64,000 nucleotides of DNA from Candidatus Heimdallarchaeota archaeon (lineage in GTDB: Archaea; Asgardarchaeota; Heimdallarchaeia; JABLTI01), in contig JAHLVW010000050.1 of the NCBI GenBank assembly GCA_019058275.1, forward strand, positions 1 through 64,000, read 5' to 3'. Under the pieces are notes generated by a model that worked only from the letters and a program-made list of their open reading frames with translations, searched no databases and was not told where the DNA came from. The translations under genes and the position numbers were made by a program. Of this stretch, positions 7,729 to 49,242 are shown piece by piece. Position 1 is the first letter of the stretch; every line of letters starts with the position of its first letter.

Positions 7729-8196
7729 TCATTCCCTTTCATTTTTATTTTTTAATAATACATCTATTTTATCATAGGATGTTCCTAATGCATAATCAAG
7801 AATTTCGGAGAAAAATAATGTTGCCAGATTGATTTCTGTATATTCACTTTGATGCACTGTAAAGTTCATACTACAATTTCCGCAACCCATAGTAATTGCA
7901 TCGACTTTATGCTTAATTAATGAGTTAATTCTTTTCTTGGCAATATCATAAGCTATTCTTTCATCATACTGTAACATAGATGAACCACAACAAAACGTTT
8001 CAAATGGATAATGAACAATATTAATTGATGTGAGTTTTAATAGGTCAAGCAACAATGAAGCACCTATCGATGCAGATGGAGAATATTTTTCAGGATGGAT
8101 AGCTTGACATGGAACTTGTGTGGCAACAGTTAGTTTACTAAGATTAATTGAATTCTGTTTAGAAACAAGTTTCTTGTATTTACCTTGTAACTCTTC
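7729..8196 (-). pseudogene. HdrB/D-like CCG domain, 3' fragment after in-frame stop
   Basis: This is the continuation, in the same reading frame, of the iron-sulfur protein ending at 8197. Directly after the TAA the frame reads EELQGKYKKLV and carries a second cysteine-rich CCG domain: VPCQAIHP, FCCGSS and GCGNCSMNF, which in HdrB/HdrD, GlpC and LutA-type proteins binds a [4Fe-4S] cluster. The only start codon before the conserved region is lacking; the first is TTG at 8055, beyond the first conserved cysteine. That makes an independent gene unlikely and a nonsense-split gene likely. Confidence 0.75.
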
Positions 8197-9003
8197 TTAT
8201 CGTAGAAATTCTGATAGGTGTTTAATTTCCACTTTTCCAGAAAAAGTAAGAGAAATTTTAGCTAAATGATGATTAGTATTTTTCATTTTCTCAGGATTCT
8301 CGAGTAAAATTAAGTTTGCTCTTCTTAAGTTTCCTGAACATCCACCATAAAGAGAGACTATTTTCTGAACACCATATTTTTCAGCTAATGCCAAATTGTA
8401 AGCAACAATTATGAGCCAAAGCTCTTCAGACTGTGATTCAGTCATAATAGAACCGCAGCAAGCAAAAGGCAAGTCTTTAAATTCTACAGATAATTTTGTA
8501 AGCAACCTCCGAGCTGATAATTCATAATCTGGTACTCTATAAGTTATGAGACATCCTAAAAAAAGAGCAATCTTTTTTGATTGATTTTCATCCACAATAT
8601 CCCGAGTTAAAGGTTTTTCACTAGTTTCTAAAGCCATGATCTCATCAATTAAAAACGCAACTTCGTCGGTATTTGTAGGTGGAAGAATGGGCAACTCATT
8701 ATCAGTCCTGATATCATTTATTGACTTATTAATATCAAATAACTGCCCTTGTTTTTTCAATTTATCAATAGGCTCAAGCATTCTACTGGTTTGTTGATCT
8801 TTATTTCTTCTACGATCAATTGCATACTGTCTAGGTGAATAATCAGGACAGATATCTTCACAATAAAAACAAGAGGTGCAAAACCAAATATCACCTTTAT
8901 CTTTAGTGATTGGTAAAGCTCCTTCACTTTTATCAGCAACAGTTACTTGAGAAGCCTTACACTTGTATAGAGATTCGCAATTATCGTAGGGCATAATAAT
9001 CAT
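8197..9003 (-). pseudogene. HdrD/GlpC-like iron-sulfur oxidoreductase, 5' fragment
   Basis: The N-terminal part has one clear [4Fe-4S] motif, CTSCFYCEDICP, but the other expected ferredoxin motif is reduced to NCESLYKCKAS, too few cysteines for a cluster. It is followed by the first CCG domain: FLGCLITYRVPDYE, FACCGSIM and GGCSGNL. Proteins of this type move electrons to or from disulfides or quinones. The frame stops at TAA 8199-8197 and resumes without any shift into the second CCG domain. A single base change (for example CAA to TAA) would explain it. ATG 9003 is used as start, with TTG 9015 and ATG 8994 as alternatives. Confidence 0.75.
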
Positions 9004-9067
9004 TAAAAAATCCAAGAGTGTGATGACGTATAATTATTTCTATGATTAACAAATATCAATGGATTCT

Positions 9068-20714: not shown

Positions 20715-22234
20715 ATGCATGGAGCAAAAAGCAATATGTCTGCTACAACAGAAAATGAAACATCGAGCATTACAAGTAATCAGAGTCTCATTGACAACAA
20801 ACCTTCGATAAAAGAGGTTCTTAAGAACAAACCATTTATGGTTCTGTTTGGTGCTCAATTTATAGAAAATGTTGGTAGAGCAATATCCGGATTAGCATTA
20901 GAGTTTTTCATATGGGAATTGACTAGAAGTCCTCTAAAAATGGGCATCCTTGCTATTCTATGGTTATTACCATTTGTAATTATTGCTCCATTTGCAGGTG
21001 TTTACACTGATAGATTAGATCAAAGAAAGATTATGTTTTGGTCTAACGTTTTAAGTATGATCGCTTCCTTAGGATATGTGATTATTTATTTGCTTAGAAA
21101 CGTGTTAACATTTACAAGAACATATTGGCTGGTTGTAAGTGAGGGACGAGCTATACATGTTACAGAAATAAATTATGGCTGGGTAATATGGCCACTCTTT
21201 ATTTTTGCCTTCCTTAATTCTGCTTCACCTGCTTTCTTCTTCCCTGCAAGAAGTGCTTATACAAGATTAATAGTAAAGAAAAAGAATTTGCTAATTCAAT
21301 TGGTTCAACAATTTTTCAAATTGCTACAATTGTAGGATTTGTTATTGCAGGTATTTTAGCAGCTATTAGCTATCTTACAAGTTTTATCTTTGATGCTTCA
21401 ACATTTTTAGTCTCAGGATTACTGATTTTAGTGATAATAAGAATTGGTAAGAAACCGCCAAAAGTGGAACGAGAGAAATCAACATCTCTAAAAGCAGAAA
21501 TGAAAGGTATAGTTAAAGACATGAGAATTGGTTATAGAACAATTAGAGATTATCCAAAGATATCATACATGCTTGTAATCTTCTCAGCAATTACCTTCAC
21601 TTTCGGAGCAATCAATGTATTATTTATTGTGATACTACAAGGAGAAATGGGATTAAATCAAATGTGGTATGGAGCCCTTCAAGGTGTAATGGGAGCTTCA
21701 GGGATCATTACTGCAATAATATTAATGAGTATGGGGAAAATAAAACGCAAAATACTACTCTTGAATGGTGCTTTTCTCTTAGCAACTATTGCTATGTATT
21801 TATTTGCAGTAATTAGAAATCCATGGGGTATGGCAGCTATATTATTCTCGTTTGGAGTTATTACAGTATGTATTAACATTCCAGCTTCTACATTAATACA
21901 AGAGACAGTGCCATATGAAAAGCAAGGCAGAGTTTTTGGTACACAGCAATTAGTACAAGGTATTGCCCAATTAATTGGGATGGGTATTGTTGCGATAATT
22001 GCTGAATATGTCTTACCAATGATTACTTTATTAGTTAGTTCTGGAATATTGACAATCATAATAGTAATAGGGTTCATTTATTCAGGAAGAAGGGGATTAC
22101 TAGAAAAAGACTATGATGAAAATGGTGACGTAAAAAAGGCGAGAATAAATAATATAAACAAACAACTAGAAGATTCAGAATTTTCCATTGAGAAACCAAG
22201 CTCTTTTACAGCTGGAGATTCATCAATAGAATAA
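20715..22234 (+). pseudogene. MFS exporter (enterobactin-exporter type) with a frameshift
   Basis: A major facilitator of the MFS_3 type, about 505 aa if repaired. The first piece (20715-21335) covers helices 1-5 with GVYTDRLDQRKIMFWSN, the usual loop 2-3 motif. After FFPARSAYTRLIVKK the frame is lost; the other frame reads EFANSIGSTIFQIATIVG and continues to 22234. The expected residues are restored by adding one A in the five-A run at 21279-21283, so this is a one-base homopolymer indel, real or artefactual. The start may be ATG 20715 or ATG 20736. The gene is convergent with ftsZ, separated by a long hairpin. Confidence 0.8.
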
Positions 22235-33031: not shown

Positions 33032-33556
33032 TCAAGCATTTTTGATTATCTGACCTTCTGTTACAGTTATAAAATTGAGTGTAACCATTAAATCCAGAAT
33101 ATCTTTTGTTGTTATTCTAATAACATAGAGAGTAAGATTTGTTTTTTTTAGCAATGTTGATGTTAATCTCTCCATAGTAATAAATTGATTATCCATTAAC
33201 ATTGATAGAATCAGATCAATTATACCAATACTCATTAGATAGTTTTGTAGTATTTCATCTACTTTAGAATCTGTAATTTCTTCTGAGGATAATTCTTCAA
33301 GTAATCGCAATCCATCTTTTGTAAACTTAAATTTACTTTTCTTCTTCTCAAATATTGGTATCCATTCACAATCATTATATCTTTGACAATGGTCACCACA
33401 AATAGGAATTTTTGTCCGAATAACTTTGACTAATCCTAGCACTTCTAAAGAGTTCAAGCCTACGTTAAATCGTTCTTTAAAGTCATAAGTACACCCGATT
33501 TCATTTAATGATAATAATTCAAGCATTATGTCTTTTAGATTGTTAGCAATTAGCAT
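33032..33556 (-). CDS. Unknown protein with four-cysteine cluster, probably winged helix
   Basis: A 174-aa protein, last gene of the Dna2-like operon, starting 13 bases after the helicase stop. Cysteines C22, C53, C57 and C63 (GCTY and PICGDHCQRYNDCEW) could bind zinc or an Fe-S cluster. The surrounding segments (KFTKDGLRLLEELSS and NVGLNSLEVLGLVKVIRT) fit winged-helix units. I do not recognise the family. Position suggests a DNA-binding or regulatory accessory of the nuclease-helicase. Confidence 0.65.
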   Translation of the reverse strand: MLIANNLKDIMLELLSLNEIGCTYDFKERFNVGLNSLEVLGLVKVIRTKIPICGDHCQRYNDCEWIPIFEKKKSKFKFTKDGLRLLEELSSEEITDSKVDEILQNYLMSIGIIDLILSMLMDNQFITMERLTSTLLKKTNLTLYVIRITTKDILDLMVTLNFITVTEGQIIKNA

Positions 33557-33569
33557 GTTCTCTTTCTCC

Positions 33570-35249
33570 TTAAACTTTGATTTTTTCCGATTGTATTTCT
33601 TCAGCTAGATTTTCTTTTTTCAACTCATCAAATGTTCTAAATGCTTCGCTGAAAATTGCTTTCGCTTCATCTTCCTTACTATCAGCACTTTTTTCAGTGA
33701 ATGTTCGTCGATTTCCAACAATAATCAATTTCGCTTTTGCCCTACTTATTGAAACATTCATCTGTCTCCAATCTCTGTGCAGTTGACCTATAATGTTCAG
33801 ATCATTACTGTTAGTTAAACTTAGAATTATGATTTCCCGTTCATCACCCTGGAATCTATCAACAGTATCTACACGGATCTGTTCAATTACTTCTTCAGGC
33901 AAATTCCTTGCCCTAAGTTCCCCATAGATAAGATTGTTCTGGTGACGATATGGTGAAATTACTCCAATTTCCTTTGCTATTTCTATTTGACTTTTCTTGT
34001 TATAAGCTCCTAGAAACTCAGCCAGAACTTTGGCAATTATTTTTGATTCACGTATGTTAAATCGAGATTCAGTTTGTATATCTACTTCTTGTATACCCTC
34101 AATAGCTTCTTTATCCTTTTCAGTATTGACTAAGATTACTGGTTTATTTGGTTCAAATAATGTATTTATGAGCTCGGATCGAGACTTATCATCTTGAATT
34201 GATGTATCATATGGTTTCAAAAATTTTTCAATTGTATGTGTTCCAATCTTATCATTTGCTGGAACATAATTAATAGTTGGATAGAAACCATTCTTTACTA
34301 TTCTCGAGATTGCTTCATTCATACGATATTGTTCTGATAGTATGATAACATTTTCAGTTTTCTTGGACCAGATTCGGAATAGTCGTTCAAAAAGTGAAGT
34401 TTTCAATGTATCATTTTCTCTTAGACCTGCCTTTAGTAGTACTTTAGGAACTTTAGGTGTATGTTCAATCGTTTCTTCAGTAACAACAGGTGGAAGCTGT
34501 TTGTGGTCTCCTACTAAAACCACCCTTGGATATCTTTCTTGTGATTCAGTAGCTGGACACATGTGTCTAAGCGCTCCTAAACTTGCAGGTTCAGTTGCTT
34601 ACCCAGCTTCATCTACAATTACCCAATGAAACTTTACTCCTTTCAAAAGATTATTTCCTACGCTTCCAAGTGTTCCAACCATAATTCCTGATTTTTTGTA
34701 AAGCTCAATACCTTTCTTTAAGACAGTCACTAGAACATCAGCGTCAGCTTTTTCTTCCATTTTCTCTTCAAATTTAACTTGATTTGATAAGATGAATTCC
34801 TTAACTTCGTCAGAGTGATCCTTTGAATATGACTCGAGACGAACAATGTAAGGTTTAAATTCTTCAAAAGAAGATAATTTAGCTATCACTTCATCTGCAG
34901 CTCGATGAGTATTTGCTAATATTAGCACTGGTTTTGATAAATCAAATTCAGCATCATCAACTTGACTTGAATTTAGTAAATAGTACTCAGAAAAAATTTC
35001 CTTGGCTAATTGAGATATCATTCTTGTTTTTCCAGAACCAGGAGGTCCTTGTATAAGTAATATATCTCCAGGATTCAAACCAAGTGCTTTTTCAATAGCT
35101 TCTACCTTGAACTTGTCTAAAGTCTTAAGGAGTTTTTTTCTCTTTATTGGTTTGATTTTATTAGGTTTGGTTATCCCTAGAATTAGTTTAGTCATATGAG
35201 GTAATTCTTCATCATCAATTCTCCTACCAAGAATTCCTGAGCGATTCAT
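33570..35249 (-). pseudogene. SF1B helicase part of Dna2-like protein, interrupted at motif II
   Basis: A UPF1/Dna2-type superfamily 1B helicase. Motifs in order: GPPGSGKT (Walker A), IVDEAG-stop-ATEP (motif II), VGDHKQLPPV (III), LSEQYRM (IV), VDRFQGDEREIIILSLTNS (V) and NVSISRAKAKLIIVGNRR (VI). The TAA at 34601-34599 sits exactly where this family has Gln (DEAGQATEP), so CAA to TAA is the simplest explanation; no frame change occurs. The same frame is open upstream to a TGA at 35288-35286, through sequence that looks coding (QSRSLTDFLFESMNRSGIL), joining the nuclease gene. One protein of about 1160 aa would result without the two stops. Gln in motif Q/II contacts matter for activity, so the fragments are probably non-functional as helicase. 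Confidence 0.85.
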
Positions 35250-35285
35250 TGATTCAAAAAGAAAATCGGTTAATGAACGGGATTG

Positions 35286-37049
35286 TCATTTTGAAAAGAT
35301 AACATTTTCAACTTGATCGATTCTGAAGTTTTCAGCGATTTTTCCTCTTCTTTTCAAAGTTGAGCGAGTTTTAATGGTTATTTCATTCGAACTTGAAGAT
35401 GAAATCTTTCCTTCAACGCTAAATATCTCTCCTGGTAATAAATGGGATGGAGTAACAAAAACATCATCACCTTCTCTTATTCTAGTAAAGATTTTCTTAT
35501 CTGATGTTAAAGTTAAGATATATCGATAAGGATCGAATTTCTTCAGTTTTAAGCTTGGTATCGTAATTCCTTGATCCTCTAACTTTTCGATTTCAGTTGT
35601 TGCTAATCGATGGAGATATTTCTTTACATTATTCAATTCAAATCTTAGTTGTCTGAAATACCAAGACCAATACTCATACAACTCTTGTGGGAAATGTAAC
35701 CAGATATCAGAATCAAGTAAACGTCGTCCATCAGAGCATATGCCTTGTTGATTAGATGGACAGTAATTACAAATTCTGTGCCAATTACTGCTTAGGAAAT
35801 TAAAATCAGTTCCAAGTGCAGGCATAAATCTCTTCGAAAGGAATTTGTTTATTTTATATCGATCATAACCTGATAGTAACCCAGATTCTATTGCAAATGC
35901 AATGTTCCTTGTTTGTAGTAAAAGGTCAAGATACTCATTACTTTGGTCATCTAATAATTCGATTTTTCTTCTCTTAATAACTGCATGATCTTGTAATGGG
36001 ATAATTTCAGGATTATCTTCAGCTAGTTCTGCATCTGCATCAAAAAATTCAATGTATGCTCTTGGAGCTTTTCCGGTCACCTTTTTGATTATTTCATGAT
36101 AAGCAAATGCTTGAATTCCACCAGGATGTGTAACTCCAGTAAGAGGATCATAATCAGATTCTATAAAGTAGCGACTGCCAGTTTTAATCTCCCAAAGTTC
36201 ATCATAATCTTTCTTAAGAATAATCTGATCGGCTCTGCCTGAAATTCCTCTTTCCAATGAAAAAAGTAAAGTTTCATTTAACAATTGATTTTCATCTATC
36301 TTTTCAAATTGCTCAGCTATTTTATCAACGATTATAGAATCGACTTGTAATGATAATTTTAAATCCTTACTTGGATCTCTATAGTAATTTTTCCTTAGCA
36401 ATACTTCAAAATTGTCTCTCCATTCATCAAGCACAGCCCTATTGTAATCTTGCATTGCTTTGACTGGATCTGCGCTTCTAACCCACTCATTAGAAGCATA
36501 TTGAATCCCTTTATGGATTGCATTTCCTCTAACAAAACCTATTGAAGTTGGCGAATTTCTAATGCTTCTTTGAAGTCCTAAAAATGATTCATAAAAGTAT
36601 TTTGCTGGACAATTAAAAGCAAGCTCTAGTTCTCCTCCGGTAATATTGTAATCTGGTGAAATGATAAACTTCAAAATAACTAATTGTCCACTTTCTTCTG
36701 TATCCTTTCCATTTTCTGTTCTCTTACTAGGTTTCCAAATGGCTTTCATTATTTGTAATAGTAGTTCTGGTTGACGTCTTTCAGAAGCTAAACCAGCATA
36801 GCAGTACCTGAGAACATTATGATAATGCGAAAATGTAGAATCTTTTGGTTTTCCAGGATACCATTCCATTGGGTAGATAATAGCATTACAAATATGTGCT
36901 CTTGTCTTTGGATCAAGAATTTTCAAAGAAAGCTGATAAGCATTTCCTTCTAATTCCCTAGTTCTAATAGCTAGAATTTGGAAATCAACAAATTTCGGGA
37001 TACCAAGTGATGATTTCAGAACTTCTAAATGTGTGGATATTTCATCCAT
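35286..37049 (-). CDS. Fe-S RecB-type nuclease with barrel domain (Dna2-like N-terminal half)
   Basis: Residues numbered from ATG 37049 (GGTGG upstream; GTG 37064 is also in frame and overlaps the previous stop). PD-(D/E)xK nuclease motifs: H179 in GNAIHKGI, D274 in GRADQ, E287-I-K289 and Q313. C147 (FNCPAKYF) plus C427, C430 and C438 (CNYCPSNQQGIC) make the [4Fe-4S] site shared by Dna2, AddB and Cas4. Residues about 490-587 resemble the Dna2/UPF1 barrel (GDDVFVTPSHLLPGEIFSVEG). It ends at TGA 35288-35286, and the same frame continues into the helicase, so this is probably the front half of a Dna2-like nuclease-helicase truncated by a nonsense codon. Confidence 0.85.
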   Translation of the reverse strand: MDEISTHLEVLKSSLGIPKFVDFQILAIRTRELEGNAYQLSLKILDPKTRAHICNAIIYPMEWYPGKPKDSTFSHYHNVLRYCYAGLASERRQPELLLQIMKAIWKPSKRTENGKDTEESGQLVILKFIISPDYNITGGELELAFNCPAKYFYESFLGLQRSIRNSPTSIGFVRGNAIHKGIQYASNEWVRSADPVKAMQDYNRAVLDEWRDNFEVLLRKNYYRDPSKDLKLSLQVDSIIVDKIAEQFEKIDENQLLNETLLFSLERGISGRADQIILKKDYDELWEIKTGSRYFIESDYDPLTGVTHPGGIQAFAYHEIIKKVTGKAPRAYIEFFDADAELAEDNPEIIPLQDHAVIKRRKIELLDDQSNEYLDLLLQTRNIAFAIESGLLSGYDRYKINKFLSKRFMPALGTDFNFLSSNWHRICNYCPSNQQGICSDGRRLLDSDIWLHFPQELYEYWSWYFRQLRFELNNVKKYLHRLATTEIEKLEDQGITIPSLKLKKFDPYRYILTLTSDKKIFTRIREGDDVFVTPSHLLPGEIFSVEGKISSSSSNEITIKTRSTLKRRGKIAENFRIDQVENVIFSK

Positions 37050-37063
37050 TAAGCATCCACCCA

Positions 37064-37909
37064 CTATTTATTCTCCCTAAATATTGAGAAGCTAAAATTC
37101 TTCTTAGTTTCTTCAAGAAATTCTACATCATAAATTGCACTTAAATGATCTATGAAAATGGTTTTTAAGGCAAAAGCACTAGCCATGGTTGGAATTTTCT
37201 CCATTTGCTCCTTCAAACCTGTTCCATGTTCCAAGTATAATCTTAGTAGTTTTAATGCCTTATCCAACACTTCATCAGTTTCTGCTATATTATCAAATAT
37301 TTCTTTATTGAGCAAATAAATTTTGAATAACCAAATATACGCTGCTAAGTATTCTCTATTGAGTAGAGAGATTGAACATCTTGCTAATTGTTGTTGAGTT
37401 CTGATCTCAGCATTTTCATCTTGGAGTTGCTCAGCAATTTTGTAAAGATTATCAATTGATTTTCGATAATAATTTTGTTCAGAAAGCGATAATTTATCAT
37501 ATTTTGGAATGGAATTAACTATATCTTCGAAAAACTTTCCTTTACTTTTTACTATTCTTTCAGGTGATGTTTGAACTACTGATACCATTAATTTTCGAAG
37601 TTGTTTATAGAGATTAATTCTTTGTTGAAGGATTTGATCATGGACTGTATCAGCTGCTTGAGTTAAATGATTCTCACTCTTTTTGAATTGCCAAGAATTA
37701 ATTGTACTAACTCCTTTTCTAAAATTACTTAGTGCTAAATCTGCAGCTGGATCCAGAAACTCCTTCTTGTACTTCAGGGGAGCACCTGTTCTTTCTGAAG
37801 CCAGAAGCTTAATTATTATCTCTTCATGAGAATCATTTTCCTCTAAGGTAATTATCGGATCTTTCGAATTGTATCTTTCAGATTCGATAATTTCTATATT
37901 ATTTTTCAC
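37064..37909 (-). CDS. Unknown helical protein, first gene of Dna2-like operon
   Basis: A 281-aa all-helical soluble protein with no Cys-rich or catalytic motif. Helical pairs around 75-230 (NLYKIAEQLQDENAEIRTQQ and ISLLNREYLAAYIWLFKIYL) resemble TPR-like packing. Its TAG stop shares its last base with a GTG that is an alternative start for the nuclease, so the genes are translationally coupled. Probably a structural partner; family not recognised. Confidence 0.65.
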   Translation of the reverse strand: MKNNIEIIESERYNSKDPIITLEENDSHEEIIIKLLASERTGAPLKYKKEFLDPAADLALSNFRKGVSTINSWQFKKSENHLTQAADTVHDQILQQRINLYKQLRKLMVSVVQTSPERIVKSKGKFFEDIVNSIPKYDKLSLSEQNYYRKSIDNLYKIAEQLQDENAEIRTQQQLARCSISLLNREYLAAYIWLFKIYLLNKEIFDNIAETDEVLDKALKLLRLYLEHGTGLKEQMEKIPTMASAFALKTIFIDHLSAIYDVEFLEETKKNFSFSIFRENK

Positions 37910-39156: not shown

Positions 39157-40686
39157 TTAAGACTCTTTCAATCCATAAATCTTGGAAAATGTTCTATGAA
39201 GATAATCCAAGTAATATTTTGTTGAAAGCTCTTCACCAGTAATCTCTTTTATCAGATCTAATGGATCGTAAAGATTACCTTTTTGATGAACGTTTTTAAT
39301 TAACCAATCAACAACATCAGAAAGATTACCTTTTCTGACTTGGTCTCGCCATTTAGGAATATCTTGTTCAATTTTCCACAATAATTGTCCATCAATTATA
39401 TTGCCAATAGCATAACCTGGGAAAGTACCAAATCCTCCTCCAGACCAATGAACGTCTTGGAGCAATCCTTCTGCATCATTCTCGATAGTTACACCAAGAT
39501 ATTCTTTCATCTTTTCATTCCAAATTTTAGGTAAATCATCAAAAGAGATATTTCCAGCAAACAAATCCTTCTCTATTTCGTGACGAACAATTATGTGCAT
39601 TGAGTAAGTGACAGGATCTGCTTCCACTCTTATTTTTGATGGGATAACTCTGTTGATAGCAAGAACAAATGGTTCCAAGTCAACATCAGCAAAGATATCA
39701 CCAGTTATCTCTTTCAATTTTGGCAGATAATATTCCCAGAATTCTTTACTACGACCAATTACATTTTCAATGAATCGTGATTGAGACTCATGAAAACCAT
39801 CTGAGCAATAAAATCCAACTGGTTGGTATTTGTATTCTTTTAGCATGTTTTGTTCATAGAGTGCATGTCCTGCTTCATGGAGCACTGCAAAAAATGAGCT
39901 TGAGAAATCATCTAATGTATAATTAGTAGTTATTCTAACATCATCATAGAACCCAGTAGTAAAAGGGTGAACTGTTTCATCAATACGACCAGAAGTTAAA
40001 TCATATTTTGCAGCTAATGCAGCGTCTTGTGAGATTTTTTCTTGGATATCTTTTGGACAATCTCTTTGAATCAATGAATAATCAGGTTTATTTGGTGAAT
40101 CTCTTATTGCTTTAATTAAAGGAATAAGTCCATCACGAAGTTCAGAAAACAGCTCATCAAGTTTCTCTCGAGTAATTCCAGGTTCACCCAAATCTAGTAA
40201 TACATCATAAGGATCTAAATCAGGATTTATGTACTGAGCCCTTTTCTTGATAAGATCAAAAATCTTGATTAATTCAGGTTTAAACAACTCATAATTAGAT
40301 TCCTTTTTCGCTTTTTTCCAAATTTCATTACCAATAGCTGATTGTTTGGCAATTGCTTTTACTAATTCCTTTGGTACCTTTGTTTCTCGGTCATATTCTT
40401 TCTTTATTAAATGGATATTTCTTTTTTCAGCAGCAGGTAGTTTCTGATACTTTTCATGTTCTTTGATTTGATCCAGTAAAGAACCCACTTCAGAATCTGT
40501 AATCCTTTCATGAAGCAATCCACTCATCATTGCAAATTCTTCAGACCGTTGTTCCGTTCCTTTTTCAGGCATATAAGTATCCAAATCCCAGTAAATATGG
40601 CTATAGATATTATTTAAGATAACAATATCTTTGTATTTATCCAACAGCTTTTGATATAAATCAAATTCATGAGTGTTTTTTGTCAT
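39157..40686 (-). CDS. M32 carboxypeptidase (Taq family)
   Basis: Zinc carboxypeptidase of family M32, 509 aa. The metal site HEAGH is at residues 270-274, with the third ligand expected in the following ESQSRFIEN segment; the HPF(T/S)xG and (I/V)R(V/A)xxDPVTYSxHI blocks are present. It removes C-terminal residues from peptides. ATG 40686 follows GGAGTATA; other starts at 40689 and 40716. The next gene upstream is a paralogue in the same direction, so the pair arose by tandem duplication. Confidence 0.93.
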   Translation of the reverse strand: MTKNTHEFDLYQKLLDKYKDIVILNNIYSHIYWDLDTYMPEKGTEQRSEEFAMMSGLLHERITDSEVGSLLDQIKEHEKYQKLPAAEKRNIHLIKKEYDRETKVPKELVKAIAKQSAIGNEIWKKAKKESNYELFKPELIKIFDLIKKRAQYINPDLDPYDVLLDLGEPGITREKLDELFSELRDGLIPLIKAIRDSPNKPDYSLIQRDCPKDIQEKISQDAALAAKYDLTSGRIDETVHPFTTGFYDDVRITTNYTLDDFSSSFFAVLHEAGHALYEQNMLKEYKYQPVGFYCSDGFHESQSRFIENVIGRSKEFWEYYLPKLKEITGDIFADVDLEPFVLAINRVIPSKIRVEADPVTYSMHIIVRHEIEKDLFAGNISFDDLPKIWNEKMKEYLGVTIENDAEGLLQDVHWSGGGFGTFPGYAIGNIIDGQLLWKIEQDIPKWRDQVRKGNLSDVVDWLIKNVHQKGNLYDPLDLIKEITGEELSTKYYLDYLHRTFSKIYGLKES

Positions 40687-40775
40687 CATTATACTCCAGA
40701 TACGGAAAAGTCTCACACAAATTTAAAGTATTATGCTGAACTGAATAAGAAAAAAAAAGGATGAGTATGGATCTT

Positions 40776-42296
40776 TTAGAATCCATAAATTTTAGAATAT
40801 TTTTCACTGGCTCTTTCAATGAAGTATCTAGCTGAGAATTCTTTTCCGGTTACATTCTTAACTAAATCTAATGGATCAAATAAATTGCCTTTGTTTCTTA
40901 TGTTAGTATTAAGCCAGTTAAGAATATTAGAAAGGTCAAATTCTCTCATTTGATTTCGCCATTCAGGAATTTCTTTACCTAGCTGTGTCAAGAATTGAGC
41001 ATTGTAATAACTTCCTAGTGCATAGGTTGGGAAGTAACCAAACAAACCCCATGCATAATGGGTATCTTGTAATATACCTTCTGCATCATTTTCAATGTCC
41101 ATTGACAAATATTCTTTCATCTTTTCATTCCAGTAAATTGGTAATTCGTCAACTGTTAGTTTGTCTGTGAAGAGTTCCTTCTCTAATTCATATCTTAGGA
41201 TAATATGAAGAGAATAGGTTACTGGGTCTGCATGTATTCTAATCTTTGACTGAGTTACTTTATTTATTGCATGAACAAAAGGTTCCAATTCAACATCTTC
41301 AAAAATACTACCAGTTTGTTTCTTGAACTGTGGAAGGTAATATTCCCAAAATTCTGGACTTCTTCCAATGATATTTTCGATAAATCGTGCTTGACCTTCG
41401 TGCATTGCTGAAGAACAAGCTGAACCAATTGGTTGATACTTGTAGTTTCGGGGATAATTCTTACTGTAAAGAGCATGACCTGCTTCATGCAAACCTGCAA
41501 AGAATGCATTTGTGAAATCTTCTGGATAATATTTGACTGTTATTCTTGCATCATCATAACTGCCAGAGGAGAATGGATGAACTGCTTCATCAAGTCTACC
41601 TCCCTCGAGATCATACTGAACAGTTTTTGCTAAGTCAAGAATAACGTTTCTTTGAATTTCAACTGGGCATTCACGATAAATGAGAGAATCATCTGGTTGA
41701 TTAGGAGAACCAATACAAGCTTGAATGATTGGAATTAGACCTGTTTTTACTTCTTGAAAGATCCTATCATAGACTTCCTTAGTAAAACCTTTCTCATAAT
41801 CATCTAACAAAACATTAAAAGGATCCATATTGGGATTCAAATAGTAGGCTTGCTTTTTCTTTAATTCAATCATCTGTTCTAATTCTTTTTTAAAGATGGA
41901 ATAATCAGCTTTTGATTTTGCTTCTTTCCATTTTTGTGTAGCAATTGCTCCAAGTTTTGAAAGCTTTATAGCAAATTCTTGTGGAATCTTGGTTGCCTTG
42001 TCATAATCTCTTTGCATTAACTCTATGTTTCTTTTTTCAGCATCCACTAATTTATCATAATCTTTATGAGATTTGATTTCTTTCAAAAACGATCCGATTT
42101 TTGGACTAGTATTACGTTCGTGAATAATCCCGCTAAGAAAAGCTAATTCTTCAGTTCGTTGTTGAATGCCTTTTTTAGGCATAAAAACTTCATAATCATA
42201 ATGAACAATACCACTAACACTCCCAAGAAGAGTGTTTTCCTTATGTATAGTCATTAATTTTTCATAAAGGTCAACTTTTCGAATAATCTTTGTCAT
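40776..42296 (-). CDS. M32 carboxypeptidase (Taq family), second copy
   Basis: Family M32 zinc carboxypeptidase, 506 aa, active site HEAGH at residues 270-274 and the conserved GQARFIEN, HPFSSGSYDDARIT and DPVTYSLHI blocks. About 89 bases upstream of the first copy; both copies keep all metal ligands I can identify. Substrate differences may exist, as loop residues differ (CSSAMHEGQ versus CSDGFHESQ). It is divergent from the tail-anchored protein gene across 126 bases. Confidence 0.93.
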   Translation of the reverse strand: MTKIIRKVDLYEKLMTIHKENTLLGSVSGIVHYDYEVFMPKKGIQQRTEELAFLSGIIHERNTSPKIGSFLKEIKSHKDYDKLVDAEKRNIELMQRDYDKATKIPQEFAIKLSKLGAIATQKWKEAKSKADYSIFKKELEQMIELKKKQAYYLNPNMDPFNVLLDDYEKGFTKEVYDRIFQEVKTGLIPIIQACIGSPNQPDDSLIYRECPVEIQRNVILDLAKTVQYDLEGGRLDEAVHPFSSGSYDDARITVKYYPEDFTNAFFAGLHEAGHALYSKNYPRNYKYQPIGSACSSAMHEGQARFIENIIGRSPEFWEYYLPQFKKQTGSIFEDVELEPFVHAINKVTQSKIRIHADPVTYSLHIILRYELEKELFTDKLTVDELPIYWNEKMKEYLSMDIENDAEGILQDTHYAWGLFGYFPTYALGSYYNAQFLTQLGKEIPEWRNQMREFDLSNILNWLNTNIRNKGNLFDPLDLVKNVTGKEFSARYFIERASEKYSKIYGF

Positions 42297-43561: not shown

Positions 43562-44957
43562 ATGGTTTCCAATAACGAGTATAATTCTTGGAGATAGTCT
43601 TACGAACAAAGAAGATTTACAACCAGTTAGTGATGAGTCTTCCACTCAAAATGAGACTTCAGAATCTGGCTTAAATGGAAACAAAAAAGGACTTCTTTGG
43701 TTCATCTCAATTTTCAGTCTATCAGCTCAGAGCTTCTTTATGCAGTTCTTCTCAGTTTTTGCTCGAGAAGTTGGTGTCACTGCTAAGGTTTTAGGATTTA
43801 TTATGTCTATCAGAAATTTACTTTCTGGTCTTTTTCAAGGAACCATTGGTCGTTTATCTGACAGAATAGGTAGAAAATATATCCTTATTGTTGGATTTAT
43901 CCTAAGTTTCGTAATTCCTATACCCCTAATGTTCTACCATAATCCATACTTCTTGATTTTTGTTGCTGTTATTCAAGCTTTCTCTGTAAGTATAATTATA
44001 CCTACTTGGAATGCTGTTTTGGGAGATGTTACTGAACCAAGTTCTAGGGCTACCTTTATAGGAAAAATAACATCAGTAGGTAGAATTTTCTCGGTTGCTA
44101 TCTCTCTTACTGTCGCAGGTGTTTTTGCCTTAATTGAAAATAGGTTTAATGATTCTATTACAATAGGTGGTAATATTATAGAAATTACTTGGGAGATTGA
44201 ATATGGTTTTGCTTTCGGAGTAGCAGCTTTTAACGCACTTCTTTGTTTGATTAGTATGTTTTTCTTAAAAGAAACTCGAGTTGTTTCAGAAGAAAAAAGA
44301 AATCACATTCCAAAAATGTGGGTTGCTCTAAAAGACAAGAGCTTTGTTAAATTCTTAATTGTTAACTCCTTTTTCGGAATTACCATGTCATTAATTTGGC
44401 CTGTTAATCCAATTATTCTCTCAGATTTCTTTGGCCTTGATTTTCCTCAAGTAGCTGTTATGACTTCAGCATTTGCTATTTTTATTGGCATAACAACCAT
44501 CTTTGGAGGAAAGATTTGTGATAGGATCGGAAGAAAACCATTAATTGTAATAGCTAATTTCATACTTGTTTTCTTCCCTGTAAGCATGATTCCAGCAATT
44601 ATAACTGGGAATTGGTTGGTACTTCTTCTTTCCCGATTTGTGGGTGGCGTTGGAACTGGTCTAAGTTTAGTAGCCATTAATGCTTATACTTTAGATATAG
44701 CTCCTAGTGACCTGATGGGTGCTTATTCCGGTATTAGAGAGATGTTTTATGGAGTTACTACATTTATTGGTTCTTTTGCTTCTGGTTTCATAATTGATGC
44801 ATTGGATCTTGTATATGACATCAGAATTGTTGTCATAGCTATGTCTATTGGAGTAACCTCTTTACGAATAATTGCTGCTACTGGTTTCATTTTCATTGAT
44901 AAAATAATTCCTAATAGCAATGGTTTGACCAAAGACATGCATGCGAAATCACGATAA
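43562..44957 (+). pseudogene. MFS transporter, apparent N-terminal frameshift
   Basis: A major facilitator with twelve helices; 43740-44957 alone would be 405 aa but would lack part of helix 1. Sequence upstream in the same frame is open and coding-like (LQPVSDESSTQNETSESGLN, then KKGLLWFISIFSLSAQSFF, matching paralogues), yet has no ATG, GTG or TTG. ATG 43562 in another frame gives MVSNNEYNS, and removing one T near 43587-43589 joins the two into a normal hydrophilic N-terminus. Motif GRLSDRIGRKYI follows. Paralogues at 45027, 46375 and 47815. If the shift is real, translation would have to start internally. Confidence 0.65.
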
Positions 44958-45026
44958 GCATAATTCTTTTTTAGGGCAGTAGTAATAGAAAGTTAGGTTA
45001 AATACTGGGAGCGTTCCTCTACTAAA

Positions 45027-46334
45027 TTGACTATAGAAAACAACGAACATGAAAAGAAGATGACATTTACTGATGATGATGCATCACTTTCATCTGAGGA
45101 TGAAGAAAAAATCAAACAATCTCAGATGAAACTTTTCTGGTTAATTTCAATCGGTAACAATAGTTCTCAATTGATCATACTTAATTTCTTTCAATATTTT
45201 GCTGCTAGTATTGTTACACAAGGAATACTTGGGTATGTTACTGCAATTCGTAATTTACTTATTGCTCTATTTCAAGAAACATTTGGTCGGTTAAGTGATA
45301 AAAAAGGCAGGAAGTTATTACTTATCATTGGTTTCTTTCTTAATTTTGTTGCAACAACTCTATTAGCTTTTTCTTATAGTCAAACTATGCTCATCATTGT
45401 TGCCACTATTCACGCATTCTCTTTTAGTATCAGTATCCCTGTTTGGAATGGAGCTTTAGGAGATGTTACTGATATTAAAGGTCGGACAACATTCATTGGC
45501 AAACTAGCTGCTGTTGGTCAAGGAGTTGGTGTTGGCTTAATGATAATTTTAGCTGGAACCTTCTATATTCTCGAGCGCTTTTACGATAAAACATTCGATT
45601 GGAAAGTGGAATATGGAATCATTTTCGCTGTAAGTGCAGCTTTACTATTAATAAGTGCTATTAGTGTACTTTTCTTTAATGAAACTAGAAAGGTAGACGA
45701 AGACAGTGAGTATCCAAAATTACTTAATGCATTCAAAAATAAACCTTTTAGAAATTTCATACTAGTAAACAGTGTCTTTGGTATAAGTATGGCAGTACTT
45801 TGGCCAATATACCCAGTAATTCAAGTAATTACACTTGATATGACTATTAATGAATTGATAATAGTGTCAGTAATATATGCTGGTTTCTTCAGCATTTCAA
45901 GCTACTTTGGAGGAAAAATTGGGGATAGGTTCGGACGTAAACCAATATTATTTACAACTAGATTCATTTTGTTAACAGTATCTCTTTTTTATATTCCAGC
46001 AGTAATTTTTGATTCTTGGTATTTTGTAATACTAACAAATATTATTAGTGGCATCTGTAATGGTGCATTTTTCGTTACTATGAATGCTTATGCATTAGAT
46101 CTTGCTTCAGATGATACAAAAGGTAGCTATTCAGGATTGGTTCAGGTTTCATGGGGTATCTCTACGTTTATTGGTTCACTTGCTGCAGGATTTATTGCAG
46201 AAGCAATTACTAAAACATATAATGAGTACACAATGATTTTAGCAACTACAATAGCTATTGCAATAATGAGAGCTATTGCAGCTTTGGGTTATTTGTTTGT
46301 AAAAGAAAGCTTGCCAAAAGAAAATCGCTCTTAA
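45027..46334 (+). CDS. MFS transporter
   Basis: A 435-aa twelve-helix major facilitator. Loop 2-3 motif GRLSDKKGRKLL and its repeat GGKIGDRFGRKPIL in loop 8-9 are intact, as in drug and sugar exporters of the MFS_1 group. The charged N-terminus (about 45 residues) starts at TTG 45027. It is the second of a row of four paralogues; substrate cannot be inferred. Confidence 0.88.
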   Translation: MTIENNEHEKKMTFTDDDASLSSEDEEKIKQSQMKLFWLISIGNNSSQLIILNFFQYFAASIVTQGILGYVTAIRNLLIALFQETFGRLSDKKGRKLLLIIGFFLNFVATTLLAFSYSQTMLIIVATIHAFSFSISIPVWNGALGDVTDIKGRTTFIGKLAAVGQGVGVGLMIILAGTFYILERFYDKTFDWKVEYGIIFAVSAALLLISAISVLFFNETRKVDEDSEYPKLLNAFKNKPFRNFILVNSVFGISMAVLWPIYPVIQVITLDMTINELIIVSVIYAGFFSISSYFGGKIGDRFGRKPILFTTRFILLTVSLFYIPAVIFDSWYFVILTNIISGICNGAFFVTMNAYALDLASDDTKGSYSGLVQVSWGISTFIGSLAAGFIAEAITKTYNEYTMILATTIAIAIMRAIAALGYLFVKESLPKENRS

Positions 46335-46342
46335 AATGGTCC

Positions 46343-46358
46343 GTACCAATATCGGTAC
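46343..46358. promoter_or_regulatory. Inverted repeat between two MFS genes
   Basis: GTACC (46343-46347) and GGTAC (46354-46358) flank AATATC, giving a near-palindrome of about 20 bases just before the third MFS gene. It is a candidate operator or small hairpin. Confidence 0.3.
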
Positions 46359-46374
46359 AATTGTTTAAATTCTA

Positions 46375-47808
46375 TTGAATTTGCTAACAAACATCACATT
46401 TCAAATATATCTACTTGGATTTGAAAATAGTTTGGATAATGATAAAACAATTGATGCAACTGATCTTTACGATAAAGTTATAGTTGAAACTAAAGAAGAG
46501 CAAATATATGATGATATAGAGGAAATCGATACAAAAGGAAACAAGAAATCTACTTTCTGGTTAATTTCGGTTTTTAGTGCAACAGGGCAATTTTTCTTTG
46601 GTAATTTCTTCTCAGCTTTTGCAGCAGAAGCAGGAGTTTCTGGTGGATTAATGGGTTTTATGACCTCAATTCGCAATCTTCTAAGCTCAATTTTACAAGG
46701 AAATATCGGATTTCTCAGTGATAAAATTGGTCGTAAACTCATAATGTTAATTGGTATGATACTTAATTTTGCTATTACTATTCCTTTGCTTTTTTTTGAA
46801 AACATAGGTCTCCTTATAGCTGTAGCTATAATTCAAGCTTTTTCGTTAAGCATATTTATCCCTGCTTGGAATGCTGTATTAGGAGATGTAACAAAACCTG
46901 CGTTTCGAGCAACGTTTATTGGTAGAATTGCTTCTATTGGCAGGTTAGTTTCTGTTTCATTTTCAATAATAATTGCAATTATTTTCTATTTAGCTGATGT
47001 GGTATATTATGGTCAAGAGATTCTTGGATGGACAGTAAACATTCCTTGGAGAATACAATATAGTATTGCATTTGGTATTGCAGCTTTTAACTCGATAATT
47101 TGTACTATTCTGATTTTTACAATGAAGGAAACAAGGATAGAAGACAAAGAAGTGAAAAAACCAGAAATGCGAGTGGCTTTTAAAGATAGAAGCTTCATGA
47201 AATTTGTTATTTTTTACTCATTATTCGGTTTGAGTATGTCTTTCATGTGGCCATTAAATCCAATTATCCAAGTTAACGTTTTAAATATGGAATTCTATCA
47301 AATTGCGGTAATTACATCTGTGTTCACTATGGTTATGAGTATTACACAGTTATTTGCTGGTCGTTTAGGAGATAGAATTGGTAGAAGACCAGTATTTATT
47401 GTTGGAGGATTTATTCTAGTTCTCTATCCCATTAGTCAACTACCTGCTATCATTACTGGTAATTGGTTGTGGCAAATACTTGGCAACACAATAGCAGGTT
47501 TAGGAACAGGAACATTTTTTGTTGCATTAGGAGCCCTAACTCTCGATTTAGCGCCTGAAGATCTTATGGGTGCTTATTCAGGCATTAGAGAAATGTTCTT
47601 TGGGATTGCTACTTTCATTGGTTCATTATCCGCAGGATTTCTCGTAGATTTCTTGGCTAAGCATTTTGGACTTGATAATACTACAATTTACATGTGTATT
47701 GGAATCTCAATTTTGAGAGTTCTTGCAGCTATAGGCTTCTTCTTTGTTGCAGAAAGTTTGCCAAAGGAAAAACGAGTTAACAATCATAGAACGAAAATAG
47801 GCAAATAA
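46375..47808 (+). CDS. MFS transporter
   Basis: A 477-aa twelve-helix major facilitator with GFLSDKIGRKLI and GRLGDRIGRRPVF loop motifs. TTG 46375 opens the frame, but TTG 46432 (MDNDKTIDATDLY) is a credible start because AAATATATC at 46404-46412 looks like a TATA box that would otherwise be inside the gene. Closest in sequence to the 43.6-kb copy (DLMGAYSGIREMF(F/Y)G block shared), so these two are probably the most recent duplicates. Confidence 0.85.
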   Translation: MNLLTNITFQIYLLGFENSLDNDKTIDATDLYDKVIVETKEEQIYDDIEEIDTKGNKKSTFWLISVFSATGQFFFGNFFSAFAAEAGVSGGLMGFMTSIRNLLSSILQGNIGFLSDKIGRKLIMLIGMILNFAITIPLLFFENIGLLIAVAIIQAFSLSIFIPAWNAVLGDVTKPAFRATFIGRIASIGRLVSVSFSIIIAIIFYLADVVYYGQEILGWTVNIPWRIQYSIAFGIAAFNSIICTILIFTMKETRIEDKEVKKPEMRVAFKDRSFMKFVIFYSLFGLSMSFMWPLNPIIQVNVLNMEFYQIAVITSVFTMVMSITQLFAGRLGDRIGRRPVFIVGGFILVLYPISQLPAIITGNWLWQILGNTIAGLGTGTFFVALGALTLDLAPEDLMGAYSGIREMFFGIATFIGSLSAGFLVDFLAKHFGLDNTTIYMCIGISILRVLAAIGFFFVAESLPKEKRVNNHRTKIGK

Positions 47809-47814
47809 TTTCAG

Positions 47815-49242
47815 TTACTTTGTTTGTGATTGGTCATCTGTGCAAGAATAAACTACAGTAGATTCGTCTTTCGTTTCTTGAAGAATTTCTAACCTACGTT
47901 CCTTAGTTAAACTTTCATCCATAAAGAAAAATCCCATTGATGCAAGGAATCTAATCACAGCAATAATACTAAATAAAATTATTACCATTTTTATGGTGCC
48001 TACATTTGTTTCCACTTTAGCAGCTATGAATCCAAAACTTAGTGATCCAATGAAAGTCATTACTCCCCAACCTAGCTGATTTAATCCTGAATATGCGCCC
48101 ATTTGATCACTAGGGGCAATATCCAAAAGGTATGCATTATGTGCAACAGTTACTGCTCCCATTGCTGTTCCCCCAATAATATTTGAAAGTAGGAGCATTC
48201 TCCAGTCTCCCATAAATACTGAACTAATCATTACAATTGGAATAGTGAACATTGATACTCTGCCAAAGATGATTAGTGGTTTTCTACCTATCCTATCACC
48301 AAGTCTACCACCTAAGAATTGAGCTAAACTTGAACAAATAGTAAAAGTAGCATTTATTATTGCGATTTCAAAGAAGTCCATTTCAAGAATTTTAATTTGA
48401 GCAATTGGAAATATTGGCCACATTGTAGACATAATGAGTCCAAAAATTGAATTTATAATGAAATATTTTGTAAAGGTTTTATCTTTAAGAGCTACCCACA
48501 TTTTTGGTTGAACTTTTTTTCCTTGATTTGCTCTTGTTTCTTTTAGAAAGAAAACACCTACAATGCACAATAGAAAATTAAAGCCTGCTACCAAGAAAGC
48601 AACTCCATACTGCATTTCCCATTCAGTAAAAACCAAATTGCCTATGCTAAAACCCCAATCAACTTTATCTTTAGTAACTTCGAAGATTGTTGCTAATATT
48701 AACATAGAACTAACTGAAACAGCTGTTCCTAAAGCAGATAATTTACCCATATAGCCAGCTCTTTCTCGTATTTTTGTAACATCACCTAAAGTAGCATTCC
48801 AAACTGGTATTATTAAACTTAAAGAGAACGCTTGAATGACAGATACAATGATAAGCATGTATGGTTGATGAAGAAATACAAGAACAATCATAGTCGAAAA
48901 TCCTAGGAAAAATCCCACTAACAGGATATATCTTCGACCGATTTTGTCTGATAATCGACCTATAGTCCCTTGAAATATAGAGCTCATTAAATTCCTGATA
49001 GAAGTCATAAAACCTAATGCTTCAGTTTGAATTCCAGCTTGAACTGCGAAAGCTGAAAAGAAATTAAATAGAAAAGATTGTCCCGTAGCATTGCCAATAG
49101 AAATTAATCGAAATAGATTTGTTCTTACTTTAGCATCCTGAGCTTCCTTTTCTGTTTCATCACAAAGAATTTCTTCTTTACAACTTAAAGAACCTTGTGA
49201 ATCTTCATCAAAATCCTCTTCAAAGGGTAACTCTTCTTTCAT
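47815..49242 (-). CDS. MFS transporter
   Basis: A 475-aa twelve-helix major facilitator, fourth paralogue, on the opposite strand and converging on the third (six bases between stops). Motifs GRLSDKIGRRYIL and GRLGDRIGRKPLI are intact. The acidic N-terminal region (EEDFDEDSQGSL) and basic C-terminal tail are cytosolic. ATG 49242. Confidence 0.88.
   Translation of the reverse strand: MKEELPFEEDFDEDSQGSLSCKEEILCDETEKEAQDAKVRTNLFRLISIGNATGQSFLFNFFSAFAVQAGIQTEALGFMTSIRNLMSSIFQGTIGRLSDKIGRRYILLVGFFLGFSTMIVLVFLHQPYMLIIVSVIQAFSLSLIIPVWNATLGDVTKIRERAGYMGKLSALGTAVSVSSMLILATIFEVTKDKVDWGFSIGNLVFTEWEMQYGVAFLVAGFNFLLCIVGVFFLKETRANQGKKVQPKMWVALKDKTFTKYFIINSIFGLIMSTMWPIFPIAQIKILEMDFFEIAIINATFTICSSLAQFLGGRLGDRIGRKPLIIFGRVSMFTIPIVMISSVFMGDWRMLLLSNIIGGTAMGAVTVAHNAYLLDIAPSDQMGAYSGLNQLGWGVMTFIGSLSFGFIAAKVETNVGTIKMVIILFSIIAVIRFLASMGFFFMDESLTKERRLEILQETKDESTVVYSCTDDQSQTK

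Follow-up and report, generated by a model that had tools for sequence, protein, structure and literature searches.

Organization of the locus

The reverse strand of the window (the whole 64,000 bp stretch of Asgard archaeal DNA analyzed here) carries at 37064-33570 a reading frame of 1165 codons that corresponds to a Dna2-like nuclease-helicase gene and, according to ORF analysis, contains exactly two internal stops. The locus is single-copy in the source genome (G000; 4.12 Mb, 118 contigs, 92.8% complete), which is a draft with 6.8% contamination. Translation may start at GTG 37064 or at ATG 37046, the latter being more likely, and the frame ends with TAA at 33572-33570. The first premature stop is a TGA (35286-35288, - strand) in place of a TGG codon (Trp587, counted from ATG 37046), while the second is a TAA (34599-34601, - strand) in helicase motif II (DEAGQ) in place of a CAA codon (Gln816). 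Both ancestral codons are found in all five relatives compared at these sites (G004, G005, G006, G007 and G008). A C:G>T:A transition underlies each stop: G>A (TGG to TGA) and C>T (CAA to TAA) on the coding strand. A preliminary description, made from the sequence alone, had proposed a single Dna2-like frame at 37064-33570 cut by a TGA and a TAA, and both stops lie where it placed them. It was also right that the TAA replaces the conserved motif II glutamine and that the codon lost there was CAA; the CGA that it suggested as the ancestor of the TGA is incorrect, as the relatives encode tryptophan.

The stops divide the frame into three fragments. The first (35286-37064, - strand) comprises an N-terminal domain, an Fe-S PD-(D/E)XK nuclease and a barrel, based on a match to Pfam PDDEXK_1 (E-value: 1.7e-9), invariant alignment columns and a structural model. 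The second (34599-35285, - strand) encodes helicase domain 1A up to motif II (Pfam AAA_11, E-value: 2.9e-20), with the Walker A sequence GPPGSGKT at 35048-35025 (- strand). The third (33570-34598, - strand) encodes the remainder of motif II and helicase domain 2A with motif VI (Pfam AAA_12, E-value: 1e-43), in which R1095 is changed to Q. The stretch from the TGA to the next ATG (35285-35250) reads QSRSLTDFLFES; its conservation across all relatives shows that it descends from coding sequence, in keeping with the earlier proposal that it reads as protein.

Orthologues were sought in 57 genomes using the read-through protein. Four genomes of the same genus (G004, G005, G007 and G008) were found to encode it as an uninterrupted single ORF of 1157-1203 codons with 66-80% identity, so that the open frame in the source genome is not due to chance. 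The preliminary description had anticipated either an intact gene of approximately 1160 aa in relatives or, if it was mistaken, two halves that are always encoded separately; the first was observed in these four genomes and the second was not seen. The orthologue of G006 is intact for 934 codons, at which point its contig ends, and G001 has a short dna2-like fragment at a contig edge. In L057 (G006:C239), the dna2-like frame was judged by eye to continue into unrelated D-3-phosphoglycerate dehydrogenase-like sequence, and this contig is probably chimeric.

The genes on either side belong to no known family. A 281-aa gene (37064-37909, - strand) lies directly upstream and is adjacent in relatives too, and a conserved 174-aa gene (33032-33556, - strand) lies directly downstream; along with a 280-aa gene and a TrmB-like gene, they are retained around the dna2-like gene in relatives. 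Elsewhere in the window, a tandem pair of M32 carboxypeptidase genes (39157-42296, - strand) and a cluster of four MFS transporter genes (43740-49242) are also largely kept. An actin gene (G000:C41:65271-66383; Pfam match of 448 bits) is located just beyond the window on the same contig and indicates that the source is an Asgard archaeon.

Relatedness to DNA2 and other nuclease-helicases

The nuclease residues H178, D273, E286 and K288 are invariant within the genus, as are four cysteines (C146, C426, C429 and C437, in a C...CxxC...C arrangement) that are predicted to bind an Fe-S cluster. An SF1B helicase with motifs I, II and VI makes up the C-terminus in both the frame and its relatives, motif II being the one interrupted in G000. 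Nuclease and helicase are thus joined in one polypeptide in the relatives, but not in G000 because of the two stops. When a profile of 17 sequences was compared with the PDB, the best match was DNA2 (E-value: 2.6e-128, chain residues 52-1045), followed by UPF1, whose match was confined to the helicase half. An AlphaFold2 model of the read-through protein was of medium confidence (pLDDT 65, pTM 0.67), and a fold search with this model placed three DNA2 structures at ranks 1-3 (TM-scores 0.61/0.66, E-value: 4.7e-36). The predicted fold therefore resembles DNA2, and the earlier claim of a eukaryotic Dna2 domain order agrees with the best full-length match of both profile and model.

Despite these matches, the Pfam Dna2 domain (PF08696) was detected in none of the nine genomes of this genus, while 36 of the 57 genomes searched have it (35 over the cut-off); the intact orthologue L053 is likewise unmatched. 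The Pfam model misses the divergent type found in this genus, for which "Dna2-like, divergent type" is a fitting label. A scan of genome contigs with the helicase half yielded mainly Bacteroidota helicases with near 30% identity. A literature search for Dna2 in Asgard archaea found nothing specific.

Several known systems can be compared with this protein. Mouse DNA2 (5eaw, 5eax and 5ean) has the same domain order, Fe-S cysteines and nuclease residues, but identity over the fold alignment is only 18-19%, and the window protein lacks PF08696 and is interrupted twice in G000. Bad is a bacterial DNA2-like helicase-nuclease alongside which archaeal Dna2-like proteins are mentioned (PMC7430649), and prokaryotic proteins of this architecture are therefore already known. 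Both Bad and the window protein fuse an iron-staple nuclease to an SF1B helicase, a likeness at the level of architecture; unlike the interrupted G000 copy, Bad and the archaeal Dna2-like proteins are encoded by intact, working genes.

Families f2, f4 and f5 of the same class contain another group of nuclease-helicases (L061-L081), which are approximately 26% identical to the window protein and which, in contrast to the proteins of its genus, have both PF08696 and a C-terminal RING finger. The RING finger occupies the last ~50 residues (zf-RING_2), and its PDB matches are E3 ligases such as RNF165 and Arkadia. Such a fusion would tie a resection enzyme to ubiquitin. The MkoA helicases of Mokosh anti-phage systems, identified with PADLOC, are related in the SF1 helicase half (E-value: 2.9e-77, residues 625-1152). 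In contrast to MkoA, the window protein has an Fe-S nuclease preceding the helicase, its gene adjoins no recognized defence gene, and the gene order is conserved among relatives. A role in a defence system was rejected, as the PADLOC matches reflect helicase homology only.

Origin of the two internal stops

Changes on the branch leading to G000 were polarized using G007, G008 and G005 as outgroups. In the dna2-like gene, replacement and synonymous changes numbered 53 and 63 on the G000 branch and 47 and 65 on the G004 branch, with a control ratio near 0.95. For almost its entire history the gene has been subject to normal selection, and this unraised ratio both rules out long-standing decay and indicates that, if the gene has died, it did so recently. 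The replacements on this branch are nonetheless unusual in kind: 23 of 55 are C:G>T:A, compared to 72 of 358 in the genes nearby (p = 0.0009), and the difference persists when the two stops are excluded (21/53 vs 72/358, p = 0.0026), while synonymous changes of this class show no increase (4/63). Strand-specific hypermutation was considered and rejected, as the proportion of C>T to G>A replacements (6:17) is the same as in controls (19:53). Radical replacements at conserved sites are more frequent on the G000 branch (11/31) than on the G004 branch (1/20, p = 0.017), although their share does not differ significantly from that of control genes (35% vs 25%). Among 17 sequences, only the G000 copy departs from two nearly invariant residues, P264, which adjoins the nuclease core, and R1095 in motif VI. 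Such a pattern of replacements would be expected after a brief period of decay, but not from two isolated consensus errors.

Two other genes of the window are broken in G000. An MFS transporter gene (20715-22234, + strand) is disrupted near 21288, where 7 nt are deleted at a short repeat, and is open in G003, G004, G005, G007 and G008, and an HdrB-like gene (7729-9015, - strand) has one in-frame nonsense change as well as lost cysteines and is open in G003, G007 and G008. G003 is a sister genome with ~95% identity (92-96% DNA identity at these two genes), and the fact that both genes are open in it suggests that gene loss is recent and ongoing in this lineage. When 834 kb of G000 was compared to 797 kb of G008, five of the 102 covered genes were flagged as broken (three of 108 in the reverse comparison); one of the five, FtsZ, is an upstream-extension artefact, leaving ~4/102 (~4%). 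Genuine recent gene loss at a modest rate accounts for the broken genes; an error-riddled assembly does not.

Based on these results, we consider it likely that this Dna2-like nuclease-helicase gene became a pseudogene very recently in the Asgard archaeon: it carries disabling mutations but is intact in the relatives, as expected of a recent pseudogene. We infer that the stops are real and that function has been lost. In the relatives, the intact chain begins with an N-terminal domain, which is followed by an Fe-S RecB-type nuclease, a barrel and an SF1B helicase. Judging from DNA2 and Bad, such an enzyme would load on ssDNA, travel 5'-3', unwind the DNA and cut it with the Fe-S nuclease, possibly in the processing of flaps or resected ends. 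In G000, two C:G>T:A transitions would have converted Trp587 and Gln816 to stops; translation would end ahead of the helicase, and no more than a truncated Fe-S nuclease could be produced. As the second stop divides the helicase core within motif II, helicase function would be lost.

The principal alternative, which we regard as improbable, is that the true gene is intact and that one or both stops are artefacts of assembly or consensus calling or derive from a minority strain. The preliminary description had weighed assembly error and recent gene death equally. An artefact is consistent with a contaminated draft of 118 contigs and with a gene that has no indels and a normal ratio of replacement to synonymous changes. 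In addition, a gap of ~4.6 kb in the G003 assembly (between contigs C237 and C280) coincides exactly with the dna2-like gene; this means that the G003 copy cannot confirm the stops, and may indicate that the region is difficult to assemble. Three observations argue against an artefact. First, with ~4 of 102 genes broken in 834 kb (and 3/108 flagged for G008), errors are rare and two in a single gene would be unusual. Second, neither the excess of C:G>T:A replacements that remains without the stops nor the changes at P264 and R1095 would be expected from two isolated errors. Third, the lesions in the broken neighbouring genes are not homopolymer slips: one gene has a 7-nt deletion and the other has lost multiple cysteines. 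Recent gene death is therefore favoured by the replacement excess, the two neighbouring genes broken relative to G003 and the ~4% of broken genes in the sample, and assembly error is the weaker of the two proposals.

It is very unlikely that the gene works in an altered form, with the first fragment serving as a free-standing Fe-S nuclease or with suppression or re-initiation at the stops. The first stop does lie after the barrel and ahead of the helicase, so that the nuclease domain is complete and retains every catalytic residue and cysteine, and the normal replacement ratio would fit a working gene. However, the second stop cuts helicase motif II, no Shine-Dalgarno-like sequence precedes the second fragment, the nearly invariant P264 beside the nuclease core is changed, and the split form occurs in no relative. 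Bypass is further opposed by the use of TGA, TAA and TAG to end normal genes in the window, where none of 27 intact genes has an inner stop; the same observations exclude a changed genetic code, while selenocysteine at the TGA is excluded by the tryptophan of the relatives. That the lineage has turned the enzyme into a nuclease without a helicase, either as a fragment released by the stop or with the stops bypassed, is marginally less probable still. Finally, ORF calling on G000 alone yields three ORFs, but the idea that G000 has always had two adjacent genes, one for each half, has almost no likelihood and is refuted by the uninterrupted single ORF of the relatives and by the conserved protein encoded between the fragments.

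Possible dispensability of the Dna2-like enzyme

Dna2 is essential in eukaryotes. The copy described here would be a Dna2-like enzyme that has lost its function naturally, in the archaea most closely related to eukaryotes. A search of the 92.8% complete G000 assembly revealed no further Dna2-like gene. Similarly, a Dna2-like gene was not detectable in six family f2 genomes of the same class, including the one-contig genome G027. In Haloferax volcanii, dna2 can be deleted and the deletion strain is viable (PMC12873603). The f2 genomes and this viable deletion make loss of the gene plausible, and the present case, taken with the absence of the gene from several genomes of the same class, suggests that the enzyme is dispensable there. 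The locus is a well-supported yet fairly ordinary instance of gene death, and it calls for caution in that automatic annotation would report three separate ORFs.

As a separate observation, another Dna2-like gene, L059 of G031 (family f7), has one in-frame TAA soon after helicase motif III.
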